Source: a virus. From it: a stretch of 44,355 nt of DNA. A program made the translations under genes and the position numbers. Under the pieces are notes generated by a model that saw only the letters and a list, made by a program, of their open reading frames with translations, did no database searches and was not told the origin of the DNA. Shown piece by piece: positions 1,233 to 40,378 of this stretch (within the stretch, counting starts at the first letter, position 1; each line of letters begins with the position of its first letter). Where the stretch lies: positions 1 through 44,355 of IMG/VR virus record IMGVR_UViG_3300044684_000248. One strand, given 5' to 3'.

Positions 1233-2695
1233 CAGACTGTTACCTCCAAGGTAGTACGAAGAGTGCCCCAGTCGACCGAGCGCGAGGTCACAATCCCGAC
1301 CTTGCCCGCGGCCAGGCCGAAGCGGTTACTGAAAAGCGTCACGGCTTGCCCAAGCTCCGTAAGAAGTTGGGCCGGCGTGGCTTCGAAGCGGTACGTCGTG
1401 CGCGGAACCTTCACGATCGCCAATCGCCGATTTGCTTCGGCCTGAGCGTCTGTTTTGCGTAGCAGGCAGGTCTCGATCAGATCCGGCTCCGCATCCCGCT
1501 TGTAGGTCGCCTGCACCGCGGTGTCGACAGCAGTCACGGACAGCCACTCTTGCGCATACAGGTTCTTGTGCGCGTCAGGGAGCGTCGTCTGAAGGTTCTC
1601 TTGCACAGTCCAGTTACGGCAGTAGCCAATCTTCACGGCTGCCGCGACTTCAGTACGGTTGACGATACTGATACTGCGATCAAGTTGCTGTGACCGCGGG
1701 ATCGACGTCGTCGCAGTCGCAGGGATCGCGAATTGGATCAGCCTCAACTTGCCGCTCATCGACGGCACCAGCTGGGCGCCGATGCTACCTGCCAGCTGCT
1801 GGCACGCAACCAGCACGTTCGTCCGCTCGGTCAGCCATAAGCCGACCGGCTGCGGATTCGCCGCATCGAACGCGGCCAACTGCGTAGCGTCGAGGTCGGC
1901 GGACGTGAAGCGCGTCGTCGACTTGCCGCGCTGGGTCACCAGATACTGCACCAATTGGCTGATCGTGTTCACGTAGACGCCGTTGTACTTTGTGCCCTGC
2001 GCGCTGCAGGTCACGACACCCGTACCGACGGCCTCGTTGAACACGAAGCGACCGGTACCGGCCGTCACCGTAATGGCGCCGCGCGGCTTGCCGTCCGTAC
2101 GGACCTCCAAAACACCCTCGTTTACGCCATCACCGAACGCATACTCCAGCGTGTTGGGATTGGTCTGCACTGGGCTGATGTTGCTCGCCTCGCCCAGCAG
2201 CACGGGCACCAGCGCATCTGGATTGGTCGCGTTACCGCCGATCTTCACGTCGGTGACCGGCGTGTTAAGGCGCTCGAGTTTATTCGCGAGGCGCAGGTTG
2301 AGCCGATCGCGCGACTTGCAGCCGATATCGATGGTAGTGCCAGCGAAGACCTGACGGAAGTCGCCCTCATCCCAGCGCACGTCACCGAGAAAGCCGGCAA
2401 CGTCGCCGTTTGCCCAGACATCATCCAGCCACGCGTCGAATCGACCATCGCCATTGAAGATCTCAATGTCGCCGGCCGAAAGACTGGCGTCAGAGTTCAT
2501 TGAGATCGACTCTGTCACCTTCAGCCCGCCGGCAACGACTGCCAAGTAAGGCGTATTGGCGGCGCCGATGTAGGCCTTCGTGGAGAGACGCCGAACGATG
2601 TCGACGCCATTACTTTTCACGCCGACCGTAAACAACATGACCCGCTGCGCGCTGGAGTCACCCAGCCACGCAGCGAACTGTGCATCAGTTATCAA
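1232..2695 (-). CDS. Tail tip/baseplate hub-like protein
   Basis: This 487-aa protein is soluble, without a signal peptide or membrane segment, and lies directly after the tape measure gene, where siphophages encode the distal tail or hub. I chose a TTG start at 2695. It overlaps the tape measure stop as TTGA and has GAGGA seven bases upstream. An in-frame TTG at 2728 has no ribosome binding site. The protein begins [10 protein letters not shown] and has a repeated FNGDGRFD / WLDD / RWDEGDF pattern in the first 120 residues, typical of a family of phage tail proteins of unresolved name. It probably forms the ring that joins the tube to the fibre. Family assignment rests on my recognition of the pattern. 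Confidence 0.72.
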
Positions 2696-5600
2696 GATGG
2701 GGTCCTCGTTGAATTGCTTGCTGCCCAAGCGGTATCAGTGGCAGCCTGACGGACGCCGTCCACCACGATCTCCGCAGCCCGCTCCGCGCTCGACGCTCCG
2801 GCCTGGATCAGGTCCCCGGTCCGCTTGAGAGCTTCAGCACGCAGGCCCTTTACCTCGTCACGCAGCGCCTTGATTTCATCGACCAGAGCCGTCATGTTGC
2901 TCGTCCCGATTGCCGAATAGTCCAAGCGGGCGACGGCCCCGACATTGCCTGGAGCATCGGCGAGCGCCGCAGGCAGGTACTGCACGCCCTGGGCGATCGC
3001 GCTCAACGTCGAACTGATACCCGTCAGGGTGGCCGACGAATCATTCAACGCATTCAAGCTAGCCTGTGCGACGTCGACGGACTGCGATGCCCACTTGGAC
3101 AGATCATCATTCGCTCGCATGACAGTCGCCATATCGGACGAGTACTGCGAGTCCCCGCCGTTGATCTTCTGCGACAGCTGCAGGAACGTCTGCTCGATCG
3201 ACTGCAGATTGCCCTGCGCCGTCGCATCACCCGCGGCCGCCTTTTGGCGAGTCGATTCGAACTGCCGGCGTGCCTCGGCATACTGCTGCTCTGGCGTGAG
3301 CGTCGAAAGACTGCCGAGGGACAAACTGCTGTTCAGACCGGCCGCCGTAGTCGCGAAGGACTTCATCTGCGTGGCGAAGTTGCCCAAGCTGGTCTTGGCC
3401 GCATCCTGTGCAGTCTTGACCTTCTGGGCGGCCTGCACCTGATCGAACAACGACTGGTTGCTCGAGTCGAGCGCTGCACGCTGCTTGTCCAACAGCTGCG
3501 TCGAGGTCATCGTCAGCTGGTCGTACTGGTCCTGCAGCGAGCTCCGTTCCGCTGCGATTTGTGCCTCAGTCTTCGACAGAGCATCGGACGCGGCATGCAC
3601 CTGGGAGAACGCGTCCGCCAGCTGCATTAAGGATGTAAATTCCTTCGCGCCAGCTTCGGTCGTCAGGTCAAGCGAGTTCACCACTTGCTTGAACTGCTCG
3701 CGCGTCGTCACCCAGGACAGGCCAAGCTGCGACATCGCGGCGTCGACGGCCTTTGTCACGGGCACTAGGCGCTCGCGCTCGGTCAGGAAGTTCTGAGCGT
3801 AGGTCGAGGCCATAGAAGTCAGGTTCGACGCGCTTCCCGCCAACTGCACAAGTCGCTCTCGCGTTGCGGCTGACTCGACGCCGACCGTGCCAAAAACTTC
3901 CGCTGCGGTCTTGCCCAACAGTTGCGCCGTCTGGGTAGTCGCCGCGAAGTCGCCGGCGAGGCGCTCAAGCGTGCCAGATGCGGTTTCGCCAGCCTTGGCA
4001 AATTGCCCGATGTTCGGCATGAGCTTGCTGGCAAGGTCATCAGCTACACCGTTGAAGAAGTCCGCTATTTTCTGATTGTTCGACTGCGTTATCCTTGCGT
4101 TTTCAGCCTCAATTGCGGCCTTTTCGTATGCATTTCCCTTAACTTCTTTCAAGGGATCAAAAAGGATATTAAACGCCTTGCTATACCCGGCAATAGCACT
4201 TGTATCAGCGCCCACTGACGCGGCAAAGTTGGACGAGACAGACTCGAGAGAGGCAAGCGCCTGCTTCATTTGAGCTTGCGTGTCGGTAGCGATGGATTTC
4301 GTGTCAGTCCAGTTCCTATCCGACCTAAACCACCCGCCGTCCTGATGGTACGTACTATACTGCTCGCCACTTACTCCGCTGTCCGAAATAGTGCCCCGTA
4401 TCCCCGCCTCTGTAAGCTCCTTACTCTTCATGCCGAAGGCGCGGTTAGCGAGACCGCCGATGGCGCCGCCGATTACGCCACCAATCGGCCCGGCGATGAC
4501 TGAGCCAACCACGGACGCAATGTTGGTCACTGCTTGGCCGTGATTCATGCTGTAGTCGCCGGCAATGGCATTGCCGATGTAGTGGCCGCCCAACAAGCCG
4601 GCACCGTAGCTCGCCGCTGTGCCAACACCGCTCGCGAACGCACCGTTGCTAGCGATCTGATTTGTCAGGCCGGCTTGGTACATCCCGGCCTGCACGGCAT
4701 CAGCAACAGTCGTACCCATCGTCTCGAGGCCGCCGCTCACTGCCTTGTAGAGACTCGAAGCCGTCTGGGCAACACTGATTGCGCTGCTGACGCCACCTTG
4801 ACCGCCTGTCGCAAGAGGCGAACTAACGCCCTGCCCAGTCAGCGCGCCTGCGACCGCGGGGCCTGAGATTGCACCTGCCAGGCTGGCGACAATCTGCACG
4901 ACATACTTCTTGAGGAACGTCTGATACAACGCATCGGCGAGCGAAGTCTTGAGAGTGTTACCGATGGACTTGGCAAACGACGACCAAACATTCTGGCCGT
5001 TCGTCAGCATGTCCCGGAAGCCCTCTTGGAAGTTGTTGTCCAGGTTTTCGATTACGCCCTTCCAACGGTCCAGAACAGGCTGCATCTGGCGGTTAGCCAT
5101 CCAGACGTCGAACTGCTGGATAAGCTTCTTTCGGGCCTCAGATCCTTCTGCTGTGTTGTTGATGAGGTATTGCCACTGCTCGGCATCGATTTGCATGATG
5201 CGCTTTGCGCGGAGGTCTGCGTCGGCGATGTAATCGGCAGAAAATCTCTGATTGTCGCGCAGGAGCTGGTTAGCGGCAGCGATCGCCGCCTGCTCGTTCA
5301 CCACCTCAGCAACCGCCGCCTTTCTAGCATCAGTTAGCCTTCTGTAGTCCGCAATTTCCGCGGCCGTGTACGCGTTGGACTTCCCCTTGCGTTCGTCGAT
5401 GTTCTTTCGCATTTCGAGCTCGATCTTCATCGCCTCGACATAGACTTTCCGGGCCTGATCTGATTGGCCAAACAGCAGCAACTCTTGGGCCACGGCCTCG
5501 CGCTGAGCGGTAATGGTCCGATCCCAGCCGGTAACTACATCATCGATTGACTTCCGACGCTCCGCATCCGCCAGTTGAATGGCATTCGCACCATCTTTGA

Positions 5601-7377
5601 TGATGTTCTTCCGGCGCTCCATGAGCACCTGCAAATCACCCAAGGCCTTCTCGCGCGCAGATTGGTCTTCCTTGCCGCCAGCGATCTCCGCTTGTTTTCG
5701 CATGATCGGGATTTCGAGGTCGATCTCCCGCAGTTGCATGTCGCGCTTCTTCGCGAGGTAGGTGTCCTGGCTGATCAGTTGAAGCTTGTATTGCGCGTCG
5801 AGATCGGCCAGCTGGCCAGCCATCTTCTCTTTCTCGAGATTGCGCGCATTCTCGAGCTGAGCGAGCGTGACGTTGTTCAGCTCCGAGTACTTCTGATTGA
5901 TCTTGTTGATGGCCTTCTTAATGTCATCATCCGATGCACCGGCGTCTTCCCCCTTTTGCCTGGCGGCCGCGATCTCCTTCTTGCGCAACTCCTCCTTGGA
6001 CAGCGTCGTGTCCATGATCTTGTCCCACTCGATCCCGGCTTGGCGGAGCTTTTCGGAGATCTCCGCTTGCCGACGATCCCAATCATCCTTCTCAACTTGC
6101 CACTGGAGTTCGCTTTCGCGGCGCTGCAATGCAGCCAACTTCGATGCGGCCTTCGCGCGTGTCATTTCCGCCGCGTCGTTACGCTCACCTCCGCCAACCG
6201 CCGTGCCCTGCTGGGCCAGCGCGATCTGCGCCCGCACTTCGGCAAGTTCCTGCTGCGGCGTCTTCTTGCGGCCAACGCCCAGAAATACATCCCAGGCTTT
6301 CGCTGCGGAGTCCTTTGCATCCATCCAGGCCCGCTCGATCGTGCCAAGGTTTTCCTTCATCCTGTTGGCACGCTCCTCGAAGGCGGCAGCGTATGCTTTC
6401 TGCGCGACTTCGGCAGCATCGTCGTTCTTACCTTGGTCTTCCAGTGCCTTGATCTGCTCGTAGACAGCGCTCGTGAGATAGTGATACGACTCGCTCAGCT
6501 TCAGGCTCGCCTCAAGCGGCGATTTACCGAGCTCGGCGAAGTCCTTGACGGTGTCGTTGACGCTCCGGCCGATATACTTCTGCACTTCGACCGCTACCAA
6601 TCCGAACTGCTTCATGTTCTCGGAGCCGACCTGCCCCGTAGCGGTGAGCGCGGCGAGTGCTTGCGCAGCTTCCGCCTGCGTGCCGACCGTCTTACTGATT
6701 TCGCCTGCGTAGTCGGCGAGTTGGTTCCGACTGGTGCCTGCGGCGTTGCCAGACATGATGATTGCCCGGTTGTAGGCGTCGGCCTCTTTGCTTCCTTCGT
6801 TGTAGGCAAAGGCAAGCGCGCCGGCCGCAGCTGCAGCCACCGCATAGGGATTTACCAACCCCAGCAGCGAGGCGCCCACACCGCGAATGGTGGCCGGGAT
6901 GCTTCCGAACGAATCACGCAACTGGCCGCCCTGCTGCAAGAGCACGAGGAATGGCGATTGTCCGCCTGCGAGCTGGGTCGCCACGTCCGTCAACTGTGCC
7001 GGCACCATGCGCATAGCGTTCGCCACCTGCGCCGCGGACGCCCCAGTACGTGCCTGGGCCTGTTCTACGGCACGAAGCGCGCTCAGATATGGGGAGAGGA
7101 CGTTCGGGTCTACGCCACGCTGACGCGCCATCAGTTCGTAATACGCCGCGGTCTGGCGTCCGCCGGCCTGCATCGCGGCAGTCGTACGCTCGATGGAGCC
7201 GATGATGCTGCGCTGGGCCGTTTCTACGCTGCGCGCCGACGTGGCTGCGCCTGAGCCAACCTGCGCCACCGCTTGCTCGGTGCGGCGGGCAGCCTCCACG
7301 GCAGGACGCAAGCCTGCTTCAACGCCCGATGCATCGGCAACGACACGGATTGTCGCAGTGTTGGTGATCTCGCTCAT
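2692..7377 (-). CDS. Tail tape measure protein
   Basis: At 1561 aa this is the longest gene in the window. Its length would correspond to a long flexible siphophage tail. The first 220 residues are Ala-rich and contain the [11 protein letters not shown] and [15 protein letters not shown] patterns of the lambda H/TMP family, then a hydrophobic Ala segment near residue 190. Long predicted coiled-coil stretches rich in Lys/Glu/Gln fill residues 330-760. Gly/Ala-rich hydrophobic segments near 840-960 could insert in the host membrane. The ATG at 7377 is preceded by GGGCGGACGA. A TTG four codons upstream is possible but lacks a better site. It is separated from the upstream tail genes by the immI-like island. 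Confidence 0.95.
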
Positions 7378-7448: not shown

Positions 7449-7856
7449 CTATTTTTTTAGGAAGCCCCGTGTCCACTTGGCGCGATCGCAAGAGGCGGGG
7501 AAGTCCTTGTTTCCAGATGTCGCGTTCTTCTCGATGTCCTTCGCACATGCAAACGCATCGTCCCCATACGCGTTATCGGATAGCGGGGTCTTGGGCAGTG
7601 GGCACTTATTGGCTGCCAAAAGCGTGAGATGCATCTGCATCAAATTTGTTGTGGCGACCTTCTCCAGTTGCAGGTTTGCTTCTCGCGCTGCACTTGTTTC
7701 GAACATTCCCTGAGCGTGCGAGAAGGAAAGCTCTTTAACACCATCCTCAAACGCGGCGGCTAGCGTGTCGCATGTGCCTGTCTGCGTTTGCGCCTTATCC
7801 GCAGCCTGAGCAAACCCGCAGACCGCGACCAGCAGTACTCCTAATGTCCACTTCAT
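7449..7856 (-). CDS. Small secreted protein (moron-like)
   Basis: This 135-aa protein has a clear signal peptide: Lys at position 2, a hydrophobic core and a predicted cut after AQA at residue 18. The mature part has four Cys residues, which could form disulphides in the periplasm. I do not recognise the family. The ATG at 7856 is preceded by GAGGGG eight bases upstream; longer in-frame starts lack a signal peptide. The gene is bracketed by terminators (7901-7932 upstream, 7395-7444 downstream), so it looks like an independently expressed cargo gene (moron) in the tail cluster. Possible roles are superinfection exclusion or a host phenotype, both inference. Confidence 0.8.
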   Translation of the reverse strand: MKWTLGVLLVAVCGFAQAADKAQTQTGTCDTLAAAFEDGVKELSFSHAQGMFETSAAREANLQLEKVATTNLMQMHLTLLAANKCPLPKTPLSDNAYGDDAFACAKDIEKNATSGNKDFPASCDRAKWTRGFLKK

Positions 7857-7880: not shown

Positions 7881-7900
7881 AGATATATTACCGCAATGCA

Positions 7901-7932
7901 AATAGCCGCCCGTATTTCTAGGGGCGGCTATT
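7901..7932 (-). terminator. Intrinsic terminator after the antirepressor gene
   Basis: A perfect 11-bp inverted repeat (AATAGCCGCCC / GGGCGGCTATT) with a 10-base gap lies 15 bases after the antirepressor stop. On the minus strand the stem ends in TATT and is followed by TGCATT, a weak U-tract. Confidence 0.75.
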
Positions 7933-7946
7933 CATCGACACACTGT

Positions 7947-8711
7947 CTACAGCAACGACCCTGTGTGCCTCAACTCCGTTAGGACGGATGGGCTCCATTT
8001 GATCTGCTGCACAAGGACGCCCGAGTTGTGTCTCTTCCCGGTGTCGAACAGTCTCGCGTACGCGTGACCAGCCGCGGTCAGTTCCCAAGCTTTCCCACGT
8101 CGCTCTTGCAAGCCGGCCGTCGCCAAAGCTTCGTTCAACTTCCGTGCGCTGACCTTGGCGTCCGCGCTCAGTTCTGTCGGAGTGAACCACTGCGTATCCT
8201 GCCGTTCTGCCGGTAGGTGCGTAGCTCCAAACTCTTTCAGTAGATTTTGCCCAGTAACTGCACAGACATACTGGTTTGCGCTGATTGCGGCCACATTCTT
8301 ATCCAGGCCAAAGGCACGCGCGGCTTTCATTGCAAGCGGCGCTAACTTCAAAGCGTGCATGGCGTTATCAACGAGTGGCGCGGCCGCGGGCAAGGCTTGG
8401 CTCTTTGCTGCACGTTCGCACTCAATGAAATACTGGCGAGCCTGCTTACCTTTCTCCGTTCGCTCGACCATCGCAAGCTCTTTGGCCATGTCCAGCGACA
8501 GGTGATAGTCCGTCAGGCTTGCGCGACCGTTCATAAATTTATGAACGGTGAAGTCCAGACCCTCAACGAAGCCGTATTGCTCGACTCGTGCCTTGATCCA
8601 GTCCGCGAACTGCTGACGACTCTCGAGGAACGCATGCAGCTCTCGAGCATTCACGGTCTCGACAGTTTCCGTGCCGACCTGACGTTGTTGAATATTGATC
8701 AGGCCGCTCAT
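7947..8711 (-). CDS. Phage antirepressor, AntA/AntB family
   Basis: This 254-aa protein has an N-terminal AntA-type domain at residues 16-95, with the family patterns ARELHAFLES, FADWIK, FVEGLDF and the DYHLSLDMAKELAM block ending in GKQARQYFIECER. The C-terminal half (residues 160-254) contains a winged-helix-like region (WFTPTELSADAKVSARKLNE) and probably binds the target repressor or DNA. The family inactivates prophage repressors to trigger induction. The start at 8711 overlaps the upstream stop as ATGA and has GGGAG nearby. Longer in-frame starts were rejected because they read through the upstream gene. It is the distal gene of the arc-like operon, matching the position of ant in the P22 immI region. 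Confidence 0.88.
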   Translation of the reverse strand: MSGLINIQQRQVGTETVETVNARELHAFLESRQQFADWIKARVEQYGFVEGLDFTVHKFMNGRASLTDYHLSLDMAKELAMVERTEKGKQARQYFIECERAAKSQALPAAAPLVDNAMHALKLAPLAMKAARAFGLDKNVAAISANQYVCAVTGQNLLKEFGATHLPAERQDTQWFTPTELSADAKVSARKLNEALATAGLQERRGKAWELTAAGHAYARLFDTGKRHNSGVLVQQIKWSPSVLTELRHTGSLL

Positions 8712-8899
8712 GCTGAAGCTCCCGCCATTTGCGACTGAGTATTGGCGCGGGCGAAGGCTTCCGACCACTCTTCTGCCACGTCGATAAACACGAGTTGCGC
8801 CGACTTCTCCATGGTAGCGAAGAACTTCAGCAGTTGACGCTTACGCGCGGCTATGCCATCGCGTGATTGCGCTGCGCTGTTGCTTGTGATAGTCTTCAT
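8708..8899 (-). CDS. Small hypothetical protein between arc-like and ant genes
   Basis: This 63-aa protein has GAGGAA upstream of its ATG and an ATGA overlap with the antirepressor, so it is very probably translated and coupled to it. It has a basic N-terminal third (RDGIAARKRQ) and an amphipathic helical middle (FFATMEKSAQLVFIDVAEEW). No family recognised. P22 has no gene between arc and ant. Its operon place suggests a helper or modulator of the antirepressor. Confidence 0.75.
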   Translation of the reverse strand: MKTITSNSAAQSRDGIAARKRQLLKFFATMEKSAQLVFIDVAEEWSEAFARANTQSQMAGASA

Positions 8900-8932
8900 T
8901 CCGATTCCTCATTCATCTGTGGATTCACCAAG

Positions 8933-8970
8933 AGCCCTGATCCCGCCGGCAAGCTGATCAGGGCTTTTTT
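8933..8970 (+). terminator. Strong hairpin with T-tract on the plus strand
   Basis: The 10-bp stem AGCCCTGATC / GATCAGGGCT (8933-8942, 8956-8965) is followed by TTTTT on the plus strand. It starts right after the arc-like stop. It would end plus-strand (antisense) transcription before it enters the arc-like gene. For the minus-strand operon it is a U-less hairpin that may attenuate or protect the message between the arc-like and downstream genes. Confidence 0.6.
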
Positions 8971-9143
8971 CATTGTTTGCCCGCATTTTGACGAGCATCG
9001 TCATCGGCTAGCGAACGTAAAAGCCGACCAACGATTTCACTGTTCAGGCTGCGAAGCGACTCTTTCGCATGCTGTTGCAGCCTCTCTTTTACTTCGACCG
9101 GTACCCTCAGCATCATCTTCGGGAGTTCCCTCGCGCCCTTCAT
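8970..9143 (-). CDS. Arc-like ribbon-helix-helix repressor
   Basis: This 57-aa protein is about the size of P22 Arc (53 aa). A beta-strand (KMMLRVPVEV) is followed by two helices with the typical SLNSEIVGRL motif at residues 31-41, the Arc-like DNA-binding domain. A perfect AGGAGG lies seven bases before the ATG. It is the first gene of the minus-strand operon with the 63-aa protein and the antirepressor. In P22, Arc represses the ant promoter; the palindromes immediately upstream are the obvious targets. Identification is strong, the exact regulatory role is by analogy. Confidence 0.88.
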   Translation of the reverse strand: MKGARELPKMMLRVPVEVKERLQQHAKESLRSLNSEIVGRLLRSLADDDARQNAGKQ

Positions 9144-9163
9144 TTCGCCCTCCTAATTAATGA

Positions 9164-9225
9164 ACCACCGTGGTCCATATGCGTAGAGTAGACCACGGTG
9201 GTTCCATTGTCAAGACCACCGTGGT
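9164..9225. promoter_or_regulatory. Three-copy palindromic operator array of the immI-like switch
   Basis: Three 11-bp palindromes ACCAC-N-GTGGT lie at 9164-9174, 9192-9202 and 9215-9225 (centres 28 and 23 bp apart). The middle one sits in the spacer of the minus-strand promoter, the right one in the spacer of the plus-strand promoter, and the left one just before the arc-like ribosome binding site. They are the likely binding sites of the Arc-like and/or Mnt-like proteins. Confidence 0.88.
9185..9213 (-). promoter_or_regulatory. Promoter of the arc-like/ant operon
   Basis: On the minus strand, -35 TTGACA (9213-9208, consensus) and -10 TACTCT (9190-9185) are separated by exactly 17 bases. 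An operator palindrome occupies the spacer. The -35 overlaps that of the opposing promoter. Confidence 0.82.
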
Positions 9226-9235
9226 GCATTATTCT
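9207..9235 (+). promoter_or_regulatory. Promoter of the mnt-like gene (leaderless transcript)
   Basis: -35 TTGTCA (9207-9212) and -10 TATTCT (9230-9235) have 17-base spacing, with an operator in the spacer. The -10 ends six bases before the ATG at 9242, so transcription should start at or next to the start codon, with no room for a ribosome binding site. Confidence 0.78.
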
Positions 9236-9241
9236 CGCCCC

Positions 9242-9838
9242 ATGACACGAGAAGACCCACAGATGAAACTGCGGCTACCGGAAGCGATGCGCGAGCGCAT
9301 TGCCGAGCTAGCTAAGCAAAACGGCCGCTCCATGAACGCGGAGATCGTCCGGCGGCTCGAGTGGGCGCTGACGTTGGAGAGCGAACCAGTCACCGAGAAA
9401 AAGGAGCCGCTCCAGCAACCGGTAGCAGGCGCCTTAAGCTGGCTCATCACTACCGAGATAAAAGCGCTCGCAGAAAAAGAGGGGGTGCCGTTCGATGAGA
9501 TGCTGGCCAAGATCGTGGTTGCTGGCCTTCACCCAGAAGCGCCTCAAGTTCTGTACCTCCCCCTCTTCCCCGGGACCACAAAAGAAGACGTCCGCAATGC
9601 TCTGCAGGCCTCGAAAGAAGTTTTGCGGCCAGATGCAGCCGTCGTCTCCGAGTCACTTGAAAATGCCCCGTGGGCTCCAGAGTGGATGGTAGAGCGTCTC
9701 CGCCAGCCTGACTTCATCACCCAGACCGGCAACGGGAAGGTGTTGATTGTCGAGACGAAGACTACGCGTCGACAGCGACTCCGGAGTAATACTCAAGACA
9801 GTAACGAGACGACCGACGTCTCAAAAAAAAATCATTAG
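9242..9838 (+). CDS. Mnt-like ribbon-helix-helix repressor with C-terminal extension
   Basis: In this 198-aa protein residues 8-44 form an Arc/Mnt ribbon-helix-helix domain (strand MKLRLPEAM, second helix NGRSMNAEIVRRLEWAL). P22 Mnt has only about 82 residues. Here an extra region includes a possible second helical unit (residues 70-96, ALAEKEGVPFDEMLAKIVVAGL) and about 100 further residues of unknown function. The ATG at 9242 was chosen because the domain begins there and the promoter places the transcript start on it; a GTG at 9170 lies upstream of the promoter. It faces away from the arc-like/ant operon and shares its operators, so it should hold the antirepressor silent in the lysogen. 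Confidence 0.85.
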   Translation: MTREDPQMKLRLPEAMRERIAELAKQNGRSMNAEIVRRLEWALTLESEPVTEKKEPLQQPVAGALSWLITTEIKALAEKEGVPFDEMLAKIVVAGLHPEAPQVLYLPLFPGTTKEDVRNALQASKEVLRPDAAVVSESLENAPWAPEWMVERLRQPDFITQTGNGKVLIVETKTTRRQRLRSNTQDSNETTDVSKKNH

Positions 9839-9885: not shown

Positions 9886-10179
9886 TCATCCGCGCGTGGT
9901 CATCGCTTCCAAGGCTGCATATTCCATCGTCCGGATGTCGCCCTCTAACTCTCGAGCCTCTTCGTCCGAAACCTTCATCCGGTCCAAGGTGGCGTACAAC
10001 ACGAGATAGTCCAGCCCTGACGGACCGCCCATGCCCATCCGCCACTGCGTCCGCAGATCCGCGAACAGGACATACGCCTGCTGATTTTCTGGCCAAACCT
10101 CTATGCCATCCCCCTCGAGGTCCTCGGCCGTGAGGCCTGCCGCCGCGAGCTCATGTTCACTCGGCGCCGGCGTGAACAT
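9886..10179 (-). CDS. Tail assembly chaperone, frameshift-extended part (DUF1799-like)
   Basis: This 97-codon frame carries the IEVWPENQQA and RTQWRMGMGGPSGLDY patterns of the DUF1799 tail-chaperone family. It has an ATG at 10179 but no convincing ribosome binding site. It is in the -1 frame relative to the preceding chaperone gene and is reached through a slippery heptamer at 10206-10200, giving a fusion of about 245 residues (141 + 7 + 97). This is the lambda gpG/gpGT arrangement: the short form coats and the fused form recruits tail tube protein to the tape measure. Confidence 0.85.
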   Translation of the reverse strand: MFTPAPSEHELAAAGLTAEDLEGDGIEVWPENQQAYVLFADLRTQWRMGMGGPSGLDYLVLYATLDRMKVSDEEARELEGDIRTMEYAALEAMTTRG

Positions 10180-10196: not shown

Positions 10197-10622
10197 CTAG
10201 TTTCCCAGTCGGCCCTCGTTGATGGCCTTGCGGTAGTTCTCGATGATGGCCGAGATCGCCGCCGGAAGTTCGTCGGCAAGCTGCTCGATTGCGGCACGGT
10301 CGAACTTCTCGTCCAGGTTCCAGCCGTCCACTGCCTGCATGACGTAGTCGACCTGCAGCGTGATGTCCCGGTCGAGGATGTCCGATTGCTTGAGCGTCTC
10401 GGCCATCTCGCCGCTATCGAGCTTGGCTTTCATCGCCGCGAAGTCGGAGTCGGCTTGCGCTTTCGCCGCTGCTTGGATCTCGTCGGTGAGAGATGCCAAC
10501 TCGCTGCGCGTGCGGTAACGGTACTGCACTTCCATGCAGCCCTCCCCGCCCTCCACCATCGGGAATTTGATGACGCGAGCGAACGTTTTCGGGCGGCTGC
10601 CCAGCTTGATTTTCTGTGCCAT
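10197..10622 (-). CDS. Tail assembly chaperone (gpG-like)
   Basis: This 141-aa protein immediately follows the tail tube gene and begins with a basic beta-rich segment (KIKLGSRPKTFARVIKFPM), followed by helices, as in the phage tail assembly chaperone family. Such proteins bind the tape measure and keep it soluble during tail assembly and are absent from the virion. The last codons CTG GGA AAC TAG contain the -1 slippery site GGGAAAC, so some ribosomes extend the protein into the downstream DUF1799-like frame. Confidence 0.86.
   Translation of the reverse strand: MAQKIKLGSRPKTFARVIKFPMVEGGEGCMEVQYRYRTRSELASLTDEIQAAAKAQADSDFAAMKAKLDSGEMAETLKQSDILDRDITLQVDYVMQAVDGWNLDEKFDRAAIEQLADELPAAISAIIENYRKAINEGRLGN
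10200..10206 (-). promoter_or_regulatory. Programmed -1 ribosomal frameshift site
   Basis: The minus-strand heptamer G GGA AAC is in the correct phase (zero frame GGA-AAC, slipped frame GGG-AAA) right before the UAG stop at 10199-10197. After slippage, seven codons lead into the ATG-started downstream frame. Lambda uses GGGAAAG at the same place. Confidence 0.88.
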
Positions 10623-10719: not shown

Positions 10720-11367
10720 TTACGAGGCATACCGGACGGGGCGACCCTGCAGCGCCAGGCCGCAAGTGACCGTCATCGCCGAGCCTTTCTGCATGCTCGG
10801 AGTCGGATTGAAGGCCGGGAAGCCGTTGTACAGGATAGGCGCGCCGCTCGGCAGCGTGGCCTTGACCGCGGTGACCGCCTGCGTGTCCGTTGCAGCCTGC
10901 AGCACGGCGTTGTGCGGCAGCGTCGGATCGTCGGCGATCGTCATCTTGACGGTGATGGCGGAGAAGCCGTTCGGCAGCTGGATCTCGTCCGGGTAGTCGA
11001 TGAATTCCTCGGTGCCGTACTTCGGATCGCCGCCGGAGACCTCGAAGGCCTTCATGAACGGGATTGCCGTCCAGGTCGTGATCTTGCGCAGGGAACCCGA
11101 GCCGCCACCGGTCGGGAAGATCTTTGTCGACGTCGTGTCGAAGGCTTCCAGGGTGACGCTCGTGCTGGTCGCAGCCTTGACGCGGAACACGCGCAGATTG
11201 GCGCGCGTCCAGGTGCTGGTGAACTCGACGAAATCGCCGGGCGCATAGGTGTTGGCCGCCGTGGTCAACACGCATTCGGAGGCGTTGCTTGCCGCGGAGA
11301 CGGACACGGAAGCGGCGTAGGCGGAAGCGACCGCATAGGTCGTACCGTTAGGCAGGGAGATCGCCAT
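10720..11367 (-). CDS. Major tail tube protein
   Basis: This 215-aa beta-rich protein is of the phage tail tube type (lambda gpV/TTP family). It opens MAISLPNGTTYAVA and contains the conserved FEVSGGDPKYGTEEFIDYPDEI stretch around residues 107-128. It polymerises as hexameric rings to form the tail tube. It lies between the tail completion gene and the tail chaperone pair, the standard order. Terminators flank it on both sides, as is common for a highly expressed virion gene. Confidence 0.88.
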   Translation of the reverse strand: MAISLPNGTTYAVASAYAASVSVSAASNASECVLTTAANTYAPGDFVEFTSTWTRANLRVFRVKAATSTSVTLEAFDTTSTKIFPTGGGSGSLRKITTWTAIPFMKAFEVSGGDPKYGTEEFIDYPDEIQLPNGFSAITVKMTIADDPTLPHNAVLQAATDTQAVTAVKATLPSGAPILYNGFPAFNPTPSMQKGSAMTVTCGLALQGRPVRYAS

Positions 11368-31249: not shown

Positions 31250-31706
31250 TGCCGTGCTCCTCTAACCAGCGCGCGGCGTTCTGTGCTGTCGCGGCGCCCG
31301 CCTTGCCCAGGCTCGGCACGGGCCGCAGGCCGGGCGGCGTCCAATCGGAATCGAAGTGCTCGCATTGGCCGAAAAATGTCTCTGGGAGCTTGATGGTTTG
31401 TCCGGTCGCCTGAATGTATGCGGCATAGGCACGCGTACCCGCAAGCATGTCCTCGGCCGTACGCCCCGCCTTGATCCGCGCCGACCACTGCTGGAACGTG
31501 GCGCGCTTGTTCGCCCCCGAACGTGTCGGATAGGCCTGCCAGACTTCCTCGAACGGCGCTGGGTAGTCGTTGCGCTTCATCTTGGCCGGCGCTGTGGCGG
31601 CGCGCAGCGCCTCCAGTTCGTCCAGCATCTCGGCCACCGTCGACGACTTGAGGTGCACCGTCTCACGTGTCGCGATCAATTCGCGCAGGGGGGTGTAATC
31701 ACGCAT
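31239..31706 (-). CDS. Phage replication protein, O-like C-terminal domain
   Basis: This 155-aa protein has residues 50-120 matching the C-terminal domain of many phage replication initiation proteins: FEEVWQAYPTRSGANKRATFQQWSARIKAG, AYIQATGQTIKLPETFFGQCEHFDSDW. The usual N-terminal winged-helix origin-binding part is missing; a short helical segment replaces it. That role may belong to the 215-aa two-winged-helix protein upstream. GAGGAGG lies upstream of the ATG within the end of the Rha gene (8-base overlap). Confidence 0.8.
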   Translation of the reverse strand: MRDYTPLRELIATRETVHLKSSTVAEMLDELEALRAATAPAKMKRNDYPAPFEEVWQAYPTRSGANKRATFQQWSARIKAGRTAEDMLAGTRAYAAYIQATGQTIKLPETFFGQCEHFDSDWTPPGLRPVPSLGKAGAATAQNAARWLEEHGNAA

Positions 31707-32427
31707 GGCCGCCCTCCTCGCGCTGCTTCAGCTGCCACTTTGCCCATTCACCAGCCACCCAGGTAACGCCCTTTGGGGTGAAGCGGGACGCGTTGTACGC
31801 ATGCCCGTTCCCCCGCGCCGTGCCCGCCTTGACACAGAAGCGCCCCGCTTCGATGTGATTGCCGTATGCGGTCAGGACGCCGGCGAGGCGATACATGATC
31901 TTTTCCTCGATGACGAACTCGCGGAACAGGTTTTCGTTCGCATTGAGCAGCTTCGCGACCTCGCGGAAGCCCTTCGTTCCAGTCGAGTCGGCATAGCGCT
32001 GCACGAATTCCACCGCCGGGGCTGCCGCAGCAAGCTCGATCTGCAACAGTTGCTTTTGCTCTTCGGAGTCGGCCCAGGCGCGAGCAGCTGCGACCGGATC
32101 ACGGAAATTCGGCAAAGCCTGTGTCGATGGTTGTCCCGCCTCGAGTTCCCGCCATCTTGCGATGACCTTGCGACGCAGGACGGCGCTATACCCGGTCAAC
32201 AGCGTTTCTGTCAGCTCTCGATTGAGGCGGTATTCGGTCTGCTCGCGGTTGACACCGTCCACGTAGATGCATCCGAATTTGGATGTATCTTCGCCGAGCT
32301 CAGCAAGCATCTTTTCAATATCGCGCTTGACGTGGAAATGATGTTTTCCCGTCAATTCTGCAATCTCACGACTCGACATCGTTGCCTCGGCGGCACCGAT
32401 TGCTTGAAAGTTCAGAATGCTTCCCAT
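31699..32427 (-). CDS. Rha-type regulator/antirepressor with KilAC domain
   Basis: This 242-aa protein has an N-terminal Rha-like domain (MSSREIAELTGKHHFHVKRDIEKML and QTEYRLNRELTETLLTGYSAVLRRKVIARWRELE, residues 17-98) and a C-terminal KilAC/ANT domain (GFREVAKLLNANENLFREFVIEEKIMYRLAG, residues 152-183, and YNASRFTPKGVTWVAGEWAK). Such proteins act as antirepressors or block lysogeny. It is the second antirepressor in this genome, and it sits in the early operon next to replication genes. AGGAGA precedes the ATG. Confidence 0.88.
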   Translation of the reverse strand: MGSILNFQAIGAAEATMSSREIAELTGKHHFHVKRDIEKMLAELGEDTSKFGCIYVDGVNREQTEYRLNRELTETLLTGYSAVLRRKVIARWRELEAGQPSTQALPNFRDPVAAARAWADSEEQKQLLQIELAAAAPAVEFVQRYADSTGTKGFREVAKLLNANENLFREFVIEEKIMYRLAGVLTAYGNHIEAGRFCVKAGTARGNGHAYNASRFTPKGVTWVAGEWAKWQLKQREEGGHA

Positions 32428-35839: not shown

Positions 35840-36285
35840 ACTCGGGCCTCCACGCGCGCAAAGCTGAAGAAATGCGCGAGCAGCGGATCATGCTGCGGAA
35901 TGCGCGTCTGGAGCCGCACCTTGAACTCGACGTCGTCCTCCATGATGTGGAAGTGGCGCGCCGGATCCTGGGCGGCGAGTGTGATCGCGCAGGGCCGCGG
36001 CTTGATCGGGCGTGCTGGCGACTTAGCGTCCAGGGTCGCGAGGTAGCTAGCGACTTTGCCCGCGTCGCGCGTCAAGCGGCACATCAGGTGGCCAGCGATC
36101 CACACCGATTCGACGATGCCGCCCAGGTCGACCATGTACTTGCGGACGCCCGACGGGCCGATGGCGAGCAGGCCGCCGACTTCGTCGCGCGACATGTCGC
36201 TTACCTGCAGCGCTGCGATCAGCTTGCGCACGCGCTCGATGCGCTCCACGGTGCGGGATGGGGTGACGTGGCGACCGCGGCTCAT
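35836..36285 (-). CDS. Hypothetical DNA-binding protein
   Basis: In this 149-aa protein residues 15-60 resemble an HTH (VERIERVRKLIAALQVSDMSRDEVGGLLAIGPSGVRKYMVDL), followed by a beta segment (VESVWIAGHLMCRLT) and a His-rich middle. It probably regulates or accompanies replication. ATGA overlap with both neighbours. Confidence 0.7.
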   Translation of the reverse strand: MSRGRHVTPSRTVERIERVRKLIAALQVSDMSRDEVGGLLAIGPSGVRKYMVDLGGIVESVWIAGHLMCRLTRDAGKVASYLATLDAKSPARPIKPRPCAITLAAQDPARHFHIMEDDVEFKVRLQTRIPQHDPLLAHFFSFARVEARV

Positions 36286-36590
36286 TGCTGGACCTCGAAC
36301 ATATCGACGGTCCGGGTATCGCGTTCGATCGCATCAGCGGCCGCGATCGCGACGCGAGCGGCCGCATCAAGATCGGCGTCCGTCAGAATGTGCCGACGGA
36401 TCTCCGTGACGTACACCGCATCGCCAACGCGCATTGCGAAGCCATCGCGCTCGTTGGCAACTACCAACTCGGCGACCGATTTAGCGTCGTATTCGGGGAA
36501 ATTGGTGAACCAGTACTGCTGAGCTGCAGCAGCTGGCGAAGACCGATCTTCACCGACGTGCGCCGTCGGCTTAGGATTTGCTGTTATCAT
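36282..36590 (-). CDS. Hypothetical early phage protein
   Basis: This 102-aa protein has AGGAG seven bases before the ATG. The core EYDAKSVAELVVANERDGFAMRVGDAVYVTEIRRHIL is alpha/beta, and the C-terminus is an Ala-rich helix (DLDAAARVAIAAADAIERD). No family recognised. It starts a new run of ATGA-coupled genes after a hairpin. Confidence 0.72.
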   Translation of the reverse strand: MITANPKPTAHVGEDRSSPAAAAQQYWFTNFPEYDAKSVAELVVANERDGFAMRVGDAVYVTEIRRHILTDADLDAAARVAIAAADAIERDTRTVDMFEVQQ

Positions 36591-36620
36591 TCTGGCTCCT
36601 AGAGATTCACTGCTTCACTA

Positions 36621-36645
36621 AGCCCGGTTGCCGCCGGGCTTTTTT
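36621..36645 (+). terminator. Hairpin with T-tract on the plus strand
   Basis: AGCCCGG / CCGGGCT (36621-36627, 36634-36640) is followed by TTTTT on the plus strand. It sits directly after the stop of the 32-aa minus-strand gene. No plus gene precedes it, so its role is to stop antisense transcription or to pause the early operon. Confidence 0.5.
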
Positions 36646-36742
36646 ATTTCTGCTGGCCTTCCAGCAGCTCTCGGTACTTCTTCTTGCTCATCACGTGGCC
36701 GGGCTCGATCGGTGCCGGGACGTGTTCTTCGTTTTCCTGCAT
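36644..36742 (-). CDS. Tiny hypothetical protein, 32 aa
   Basis: MQENEEHVPAPIEPGHVMSKKKY and so on, ending LLEGQQK. AAGGAAG lies just before the ATG. The spacing, within a run of small early genes, supports translation. Unknown function. Confidence 0.55.
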   Translation of the reverse strand: MQENEEHVPAPIEPGHVMSKKKYRELLEGQQK

Positions 36743-39107: not shown

Positions 39108-39170
39108 TTGTCACCAACGGTCGTAATCCACTATCCTGAGCACAAAAGTGCCTCCATTTGTATGGCACTT
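39108..39170 (+). promoter_or_regulatory. Possible promoter and leader of the Arc-like gene
   Basis: -35 TTGTCA (39108-39113) and -10 TATCCT (39132-39137) with 18-base spacing, then an AAGTGCC / GGCACTT inverted repeat (39146-39152, 39164-39170) in the leader. Confidence 0.45.
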
Positions 39171-39208
39171 GCAACACGGCTGTTCATAAACGCGCAAGAA
39201 TCGCGCGC

Positions 39209-39499
39209 ATGAAAGAACAGCCACCTAAGAAGCCCTACATCAAGAGTGCCGTGCGCTTGCCTGCCGACCTACACGCCGATATAAAAGAGTCCGCGTTGCG
39301 AGAGGACCACTCGATGAATGATGAAATCATTCGCCGTCTCGCCGCCATGTCTGGTGGCGCCTCTCTTGCGACCATCCTCGCCCACATTCGCAGACTCAGC
39401 GACGAAAACCAACAGCTCAAGGCCGAGCTCAAAGCCGAGAGCAAGAAGACGCAGGACATGGTCCAGACCATCATCGACGCGCTCAGCCCTCGCCGCTAA
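39209..39499 (+). CDS. Arc-family ribbon-helix-helix protein
   Basis: This 96-aa protein has residues 10-45 forming an RHH domain (IKSAVRLPADLHADIKESALREDHSMNDEIIRRLAAM), followed by a coiled-coil (HIRRLSDENQQLKAELKAESKKTQDMVQTIIDAL) as in Mnt tetramers. It is the third RHH regulator in the window. The ATG at 39209 fits the domain start. Confidence 0.85.
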   Translation: MKEQPPKKPYIKSAVRLPADLHADIKESALREDHSMNDEIIRRLAAMSGGASLATILAHIRRLSDENQQLKAELKAESKKTQDMVQTIIDALSPRR

Positions 39500-39536
39500 C
39501 GCCGCTGCGGCCTCTCATTATTGCACATCCGAAACA

Positions 39537-39552
39537 CTGTATGTTCATACAG
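39537..39552. promoter_or_regulatory. LexA-type SOS box
   Basis: CTGTATGTTCATACAG is a perfect palindrome that fits CTGT-N8-ACAG, the LexA consensus of beta- and gammaproteobacteria, with flanking A and TAT also as in strong boxes. It lies 70 bases upstream of the S24 repressor gene. It may bind host LexA or the phage S24 protein itself. Confidence 0.85.
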
Positions 39553-39622
39553 TATAGGTTTGCTTATTGTACAAGGTCAAGTAATTCTGTACCTTTGCAC
39601 GCAAATTTTCTATACTGCTGGC

Positions 39623-40378
39623 ATGGATGACCTAAAACAACTTTTAGCAGCCTGGATCCGCCAGGCGCGCCACACTGCCGGGATCTCTCAGGAGGATCTG
39701 GGCGCCAAACTCGCGCTGGAAATGGGCGAGGAACGCGGCTACACGAAGGCGAACATCTCCGGATGGGAGAACCGTCGGCACAGTCCTAGCCTTAAGCAGC
39801 TGCTGGCCATCGCCAAGGTTACCGGCGTCAGCCTGCCTCCATCGATATCGGAAGCGCCACGCAGTCAGCAGCTCGAGCACGGGGGTGATCGCTCGGTGCC
39901 CGATGCGTTGTCGATGTTGCCGGGCGCGCTAGCCGTTCGTGCTGGCGACGATCCTAACACCGTCCCGATCCGGTTCGTGAAGCTGAAACTGCACGCCGGT
40001 ATCGCCGGCTTCCAAACCGAGCCAGAGCTAGAGGATGGCGGCATGCTGCCGATGCCGCGGGCGGTGATCGAGAAGCACAACCTGTCGACCTCCAATCTCC
40101 TGGCCATGCGCGTCACGGGCTGCAGCATGGAACCGATGCTCTTCGAGGATGACGTCGTCATCATCAACACAGCCGACAATCGCCCTATCAGCCGCGAGGT
40201 CTATGCCGTCAATTTCGATGGCGAGGCCTGCGTCAAGCAGCTGCTCCTTCAGGGTGGGCAGTGGTATCTGTACTCGCTCAACCCTGACTTCAAGCCCATC
40301 AACATGCGAAGCGGGCAATGTAATATCGTTGGTCGAGTGATCTATCAGCCGGGAAGAGTTGTGACGGGCAGGTTGTGA
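39623..40378 (+). CDS. LexA/CI-like repressor with S24 peptidase domain
   Basis: This 251-aa protein has an N-terminal XRE HTH (LLAAWIRQARHTAGISQEDLGAKLALEMGEERGYTKANISGWENRRHSPSLKQLLAIAKVTGV, residues 5-70) and a C-terminal S24 domain with the Ala-Gly cleavage-type region (LKLHAGIAGF), nucleophile Ser in RVTGCSMEPML and a general-base Lys in CVKQLLL. RecA-stimulated self-cleavage would link it to DNA damage. A -10-like TATACT at 39611-39616 ends six bases before the ATG, so its mRNA is probably leaderless. The SOS box lies upstream. Confidence 0.9.
   Translation: MDDLKQLLAAWIRQARHTAGISQEDLGAKLALEMGEERGYTKANISGWENRRHSPSLKQLLAIAKVTGVSLPPSISEAPRSQQLEHGGDRSVPDALSMLPGALAVRAGDDPNTVPIRFVKLKLHAGIAGFQTEPELEDGGMLPMPRAVIEKHNLSTSNLLAMRVTGCSMEPMLFEDDVVIINTADNRPISREVYAVNFDGEACVKQLLLQGGQWYLYSLNPDFKPINMRSGQCNIVGRVIYQPGRVVTGRL

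Follow-up and report, generated by a model that had tools for sequence, protein, structure and literature searches.

The island that interrupts the tail genes of the viral sequence IMGVR_UViG_3300044684_000248 (an IMG/VR record, analysed here over its whole stretch of 44,355 nucleotides, hereafter the window) raises the question of whether two divergent ribbon-helix-helix (RHH) genes, a cluster of palindromes and an antirepressor gene form a regulatory unit of the kind known from the immI region of phage P22. An earlier note on this DNA had recognized in it the logic of P22 mnt/arc-ant, and this view is borne out by homology, by the layout of operators and promoters, by gene polarity, by the empty sites of related phages and by a predicted sar RNA placed as in P22. 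Our analysis indicates, with a probability of roughly 0.83, that the island represents a complete secondary immunity cassette of the immI type, which the phage carries as a moron within its tail operon. The layout, the homologies, the operators, the conserved antisense hairpin and the empty sites can all be read from the sequence itself.

The two RHH genes diverge as the earlier note had described. The Mnt-like repressor (9242-9838, plus strand; 198 aa, with the strand Q-M-K-L-R and an extra C-terminal domain) reaches 55.3 bits against Pfam Arc and matches PDB entry 1mnt at E=2.5e-5, while the Arc-like repressor (8970-9143, minus strand; 57 aa) reaches 41.4 bits and matches Arc in the PDB at E=7e-5 over residues 1-46. 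Both exceed the curated cut-off of 20.4 bits for PF03869 (Arc/Mnt RHH), and both match P22 Mnt (1mnt) and P22 Arc (1baz, 1par) in phmmer searches of the PDB. Homologs of the Mnt-like protein were found in nine viral loci. Co-oriented with the arc-like gene and 3' of it lies antA (7947-8711, minus strand), encoding a 254-aa AntA-type antirepressor whose domain scores 90.4 bits against PF08346 (cut-off 27 bits), in agreement with the antirepressor earlier assigned to the distal position. The extra gene noted between them, here called orf63 (8708-8899, minus strand), encodes 63 aa of no known function and has homologs in the loci L004, L006 and L008; its stop codon overlaps the start of antA (ATGA). 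A strong hairpin behind antA (7898-7930, minus strand; z -5.2) is a probable terminator.

The RHH pair faces one 98-bp control region, in which three exact ACCAC-N-GTGGT palindromes (ACCACNGTGGT) fall within 62 bp. As previously reported, these are present without mismatch; they are the sole exact copies in the 44 kb, where 0.84 matches would be expected by chance with one mismatch allowed, and none of 300 shuffles produced a cluster of three identical palindromes with 5-bp arms. Operator 1 (ACCACCGTGGT, 9164-9174) occupies about +4 to +14 of the predicted promoter Pant, which is the place of P22 Omnt relative to Pant; operator 2 (ACCACGGTGGT, 9192-9202) lies in the Pant spacer, at the place of P22 Oarc; and operator 3 (ACCACCGTGGT, 9215-9225) lies in the spacer of Pmnt, the correspondence with Omnt and Oarc being deduced from coordinates. 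Pmnt (TTGTCA-17-TATTCT, 9207-9235, plus strand; -35 at 9207-9212, -10 at 9230-9235) scores 9/12 against consensus and is kept in relatives. Its -35 box overlaps that of Pant (TTGACA-17-TACTCT, 9185-9213, minus strand; -35 at 9213-9208, -10 at 9190-9185), from which arc, orf63 and antA would be transcribed. The two 17-bp-spaced promoters with overlapping -35 boxes are present as claimed, with the qualification that the Pant -10 falls short of the consensus attributed to it; at the same spot relatives carry TATTCT or TATGCT. Palindromes and promoter spacing are kept in L004, L005 and L008, and the spacing also in L007, L009, L010 and L012, with two sites or one decayed site.

In the annotated P22 record, gene 16 and the tailspike gene 9 enclose, in this order, sieA, mnt (minus strand), overlapping promoters, arc (plus), sar (minus), ant (plus) and a terminator. 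This region has been described as the 'ant moron' (PMC2629481) and resides inside the late operon (PMC8022706). Mnt acts as the repressor of arc and ant, and Arc both represses mnt and has a moderating effect on ant (PMC11016777); the ribosome site of ant is blocked by sar (PMC7968456). The island resembles it in its divergent RHH repressor genes, in overlapping promoters with operators inside, and in the CCAC-G-GTGG core that the P22 Mnt operator (AGGTCCACGGTGGACCT) shares, at the same place, with the window sites. Moreover, arc is co-oriented with the antirepressor gene in both, an antisense RNA (predicted here) lies between arc and the next gene, a hairpin follows the antirepressor gene, and the site is next to a tail gene within the late operon, with late genes running in the direction of ant or antA. 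The earlier note had treated the tail location as a departure from P22, which does not stand, since P22 immI itself adjoins the tailspike gene in the same polarity, and the location is better regarded as part of the family plan. The differences are that the antirepressor is AntA here and of the P22 Ant family (P22_AR) in P22, that three operators are present where P22 has one for Mnt and one for Arc, that the promoters stand back to back here and face to face in P22, and that the Mnt-like protein has 198 aa against 83. Besides, the island contains the extra 63-aa gene, occupies a siphophage chaperone/tape-measure site and has an antisense RNA that is unrecognized by the Rfam sar model (RF00262).

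It had also been proposed that the two RHH proteins share the palindromes. The shared control region is confirmed, and the second half of the proposal, use of these sites by the Arc-like protein, was not sustained when half-sites were compared with the three strand contact residues of each protein across 31 distinct combinations, using mutual information and 2000 shuffles. The half-site depends on the contact residues of the Mnt-like protein (2.33 against 1.63 in shuffles, a value reached by 0/2000), and no dependence on those of the Arc-like protein was detectable among the same 31 combinations (2.55 vs 2.48, p=0.17); as the loci share ancestry, these p-values are optimistic. At the Mnt position, K-x-M-x-R goes with GTC-type sites in all 11 loci that have it (11/11) and Q-x-K-x-R with ACC-type sites. 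The ACCAC sites of the window are those that the Q-K-R of its Mnt-like protein predicts. The palindromes thus follow the DNA-contact residues of the Mnt-like and not the Arc-like protein across loci, and this covariation supports their pairing with the Mnt-like protein, the likely binder. An arrangement in which both proteins bind the same three palindromes, so that the switch consists of competition for shared operators, would agree with two RHH proteins facing a single control region and with the position of operator 2 at the place of the P22 Arc operator. It is a possible arrangement that we nevertheless doubt, given that operator type follows the Mnt-like residues and that K-M-R, the strand of the Arc-like protein here, accompanies GTC-type sites when found in the Mnt position, yet the sites are ACCAC.

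A part of the island that the earlier note had missed lies in the interval from the stop of arc to the start of orf63, where a hairpin at 8930-8969 (plus strand; stem arms 8930-8942 and 8956-8968) has the form of an intrinsic terminator with no plus-strand gene upstream. An extended -10 (TGT-GATAGT, 8885-8893, plus strand), overlapping orf63 codons 2-5 in the register of P22 Psar, is the predicted promoter of a sar-like antisense RNA of about 70 nt (8899-8969, plus strand) that would end in this intrinsic terminator at the arc stop codon and would cover the start of orf63. P22 sar has the same place and length. The segment 8899-8970 folds at -27.3 kcal/mol (z -3.8). As an Rfam scan of the island had given nothing above threshold, position and covariation were used to look for the RNA; the hairpin also escaped a consensus terminator scan, probably as the scan allows loops of up to 8 and this one has 13 nt.

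Antisense terminators behind arc occur in 49 of 120 distinct divergent RHH pairs; shuffled sequences gave 5.1, the sense strand 7 and control regions 5. In an alignment of 40 sequences (A4), 13/13 stem pairs change on both sides and double-changed cells number 102, against 33 in shuffles and at most 32 in slid pairings, statistics that are optimistic as the A4 sequences were picked for having the hairpin and the loci are related. Fairer tests are provided by two covariance models, R1 from the whole set and R2 built without the window's group. With R1, about 100 matches at E<=1e-5 were obtained in 170 loci, many of them unused in building and mostly beside RHH pairs. With R2, the window RNA is the top match of the 44 kb (25.3 bits, E=4e-4), at the expected place, and its relatives are found as well. 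Of the 23 tail loci scanned, most of which lack an RHH pair, strong matches were restricted to L199, which has the pair, L203 and L204, with a weak one in L189. The sar family of Rfam is comparable in position, in a length of about 70 nt, in the terminator hairpin and in a promoter overlapping the target start codon, and differs in that the RNA of the window group, with another loop and stem sequence, lies below detection by its model, which matches P22 and, of 13 relatives, L113 alone.

The promoter shows a similar regularity. The start codon of the next gene stands at one fixed model position in 75/86 matches, which is partly an alignment effect as the start codon lies inside the model, and a -10 just upstream of the complement of the start codon was found in 33/42 loci chosen by the hairpin alone (8.4 in shuffles). 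In the window this -10 also encodes orf63 codons (MKTIT), and antirepressors of unrelated families share an MNxxA-like N-terminus, since their first codons carry the -10 on the opposite strand. The hairpin might instead serve only as a terminator or insulator against stray antisense transcription into the control region, with no discrete regulatory RNA being made, as a poor antisense -35 in the window and the better conservation of the hairpin relative to the remaining RNA would allow. We consider this rather unlikely, in view of the fixed distance between the extended -10 and the target start codon in most loci, the MNxxA start encoded in unrelated antirepressors, the lack of an upstream plus-strand gene needing a terminator there, and the experimentally known RNA at the same place in P22 (PMC2629481, PMC7968456). 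A sar-like RNA between arc and the antirepressor operon, at the P22 sar position, is accordingly what we predict.

Other sar-like matches were observed apart from this one. A second match in the window lies in the early region (36563-36648, plus strand; 23.7 bits, E=0.001), with an antisense terminator located between the stop of a 32-aa open reading frame (ORF; 36644-36742, minus strand) and the start codon of a 102-aa gene of unknown function (36282-36590, minus strand). Phages without an RHH pair carry a match at the chaperone/tape-measure site (L203 1357-1461 and L204 2780-2884, minus strand), preceding a tiny gene for a 56-aa membrane protein, and two successive matches about 1 kb apart occur in single islands of L073, L052, L104 and L046. 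We are evenly divided on whether sar belongs to a wide class of short antisense RNAs, taking in the 36563-36648 and L203/L204 matches, in which a promoter in the first codons of an inserted gene and a terminator at the preceding stop would gate the insert against operon read-through and force the MNxxA start.

Relatives with empty sites show that the island has been inserted between the genes for the tail chaperone and the tape measure protein, the position given in the earlier note. Upstream, the late operon comprises the major tail (tube) protein (10720-11367; PF08813, phrog_584), a tail assembly chaperone (10197-10622; PF08748) and a second chaperone-like tail gene (DUF1799, 9886-10179; PF08809), which borders the insert; the downstream border is the tape measure gene (2692-7377; phrog_24, 416 bits), all on the minus strand. 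In the empty-site phages L015, L019 and L022 the DUF1799 gene is directly followed by the tape measure gene, with a chaperone-to-tape-measure gap of 23-64 bp, and the tape-measure leader TTTTTTATTGGGC is common to the window and L015. The gap measures 0.35-1.6 kb, with other small genes, in further phages having these tail genes, and 3-3.7 kb, with the RHH/antirepressor cassette, in L006, L008, L013 and duplicates. Such a range, from empty to small genes to cassette, makes the site a moron hotspot. The cassette also lies near chaperone/tape-measure genes in L007, L010 and L199, and it recurs in many unrelated phages. The insert includes a second gene absent from the earlier note (7449-7856, minus strand), encoding a secreted-looking protein of 135 aa with same-place homologs in L004, L007, L009, L192 and L199.

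Beyond this site, divergent RHH pairs were found in 141/175 loci. The slot after the RNA is interchangeable by sequence, holding AntA, Bro-N, P22_AR, ORF6N, KilA-N or Rha; among 76 proteins there were 39 Bro-N, 13 P22_AR_C, 9 P22_AR_N, 3 Rha, 3 ANT, 2 KilA-N and 2 ORF6N, and within the window's own group, too, the type varies between AntA, ORF6N and Bro-N. This variation indicates that P22_AR characterizes the copy in P22 and not the cassette as such. Long flanking ORFs are co-directional with ant in 67/74 loci downstream and 69/75 upstream, and many encode tape measure proteins or other parts of the virion; across loci, the cassette as a rule resides in a late operon that reads ant in the sense direction. 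The purpose of the RNA lock would then be to keep the antirepressor silent in read-through transcripts. Regarding the host, a betaproteobacterial siphophage, as previously suggested, is plausible from control-module relatives in Herminiimonas and Burkholderia, and is not favored by the nearest terminases, which come from Pseudomonas and enterobacterial phages. A DNA-level search in phages gave only short antA and RHH matches.

These elements can be combined into a working scheme, in which we infer which protein binds where, the production and action of the RNA, the translational coupling and the AntA target. In a lysogen, Pmnt would drive synthesis of the Mnt-like repressor, which would bind operator 1 at the Pant transcript start, operator 2 in Pant and operator 3 in Pmnt, thereby silencing Pant and trimming its own synthesis. 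With their -35 boxes overlapping, the two promoters could not hold RNA polymerase simultaneously. Upon infection of a new cell, where Mnt is lacking, Pant would be the first to fire, giving the Arc-like protein, the 63-aa protein and AntA, and the Arc-like protein would then damp Pant. A second lock may operate at the RNA level, with the antisense RNA from the promoter within the first orf63 codons pairing with the arc-orf63 junction and blocking translation of orf63 and of the ATGA-coupled antA; this lock should matter because late tail transcripts cross the island in the antA sense direction. The target of AntA would be the primary repressor, for which the S24-type CI at 39521-40378 is the probable candidate. 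Deletion of immI lowers lysogenization by P22 (PMC11016777), and the cassette may consequently tune the choice between lysis and lysogeny rather than act as a bistable induction switch.

Several observations weigh against the immunity cassette and should be considered together. In addition to the shared ancestry behind both the operator test and the stem covariation, the Pant -10 is weak (3/6 consensus match), no distinct Arc operator was recognized, the Rfam sar model (gathering score 43 bits) gives no window match even at E<=5, and AntA stands outside the P22 Ant family, which makes its target a presumed one.

The island might alternatively be a superinfection-exclusion or tail-gene-dosage device, whose valued product is the secreted 135-aa protein or an attenuated transcription of the tape measure gene, the antirepressor being accessory. 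The secreted-protein gene does belong to the insert and recurs in relatives, but antirepressor families fill the slot after the RNA in most loci, with secreted proteins that vary or are absent, making this explanation improbable. That the RHH pair is a toxin-antitoxin or partition module unrelated to immunity, as could be imagined from the frequency of RHH proteins among antitoxins and from the 'partition protein' label that PHROGs gives to some related RHH families, is very improbable and was rejected for the toxin-antitoxin case, since the island contains no toxin or partition ATPase, the P22 record labels Mnt itself 'partition', and the adjacent gene is AntA.

Other antirepressor systems were compared with the cassette. 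The AntA/AntB antirepressors of P1, N15 and related phages share the AntA domain (PF08346) and differ in that control here is proposed to rest on RHH proteins and a sar-like RNA; control by a C4 antisense RNA was rejected, as the Rfam search gave no C4 match in the antA region. The Bordetella avium phages vB_BaM-IFTN1-9 have an antirepressor 47% identical over nearly the whole AntA protein, encoded in the early region beside recombination genes with no RHH pair annotated.

Some features of the proteins are also worth recording. About 100 aa of the C-terminal part of the Mnt-like protein (9425-9650, plus strand) are conserved and absent from P22 Mnt; the first part of this region resembles a second helix-helix unit. 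The AlphaFold model of the protein (pLDDT 56) is of low confidence and too weak for use. Neither the 63-aa nor the secreted protein has a family in NCBIfam, and the latter has none in Pfam/PHROGs-type searches. Longer homologs of orf63 (L005 5351-5662, L105 5326-5634 and L007 5024-5659, all on the minus strand) carry a twin-arginine-like leader (RRxFLxK), and the small-protein family may therefore include exported forms. A small gene pair resembling YefM-YoeB toxin-antitoxin by eye lies between the Mnt-like and chaperone genes of L007 (6910-7441, plus strand). The window further encodes another Arc-like RHH protein, the third, close to the primary repressor (39158-39499, plus strand) and, in the early region, a second antirepressor (phrog_63; 31699-32427, minus strand), giving this phage at least two antirepressors.

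P22 immI is a textbook gene switch, commonly presented as the property of a single phage lineage. The kind of system described here is known, and judged by sequence its novelty lies in the other antirepressor, the operator array and the antisense RNA; the breadth of the family is a more interesting result than the single island. The control unit of two RHH repressors, operators and a sar-like RNA is associated with at least six antirepressor families, in siphophages and prophages of several proteobacterial classes, which suggests that it is a general and modular device. Overall, these results yield two testable predictions, namely that a readable code links three Mnt residues to the operator half-site and that an RNA lock guards against late read-through, and a revised sar covariance model would help annotators to find such RNAs in prophages.

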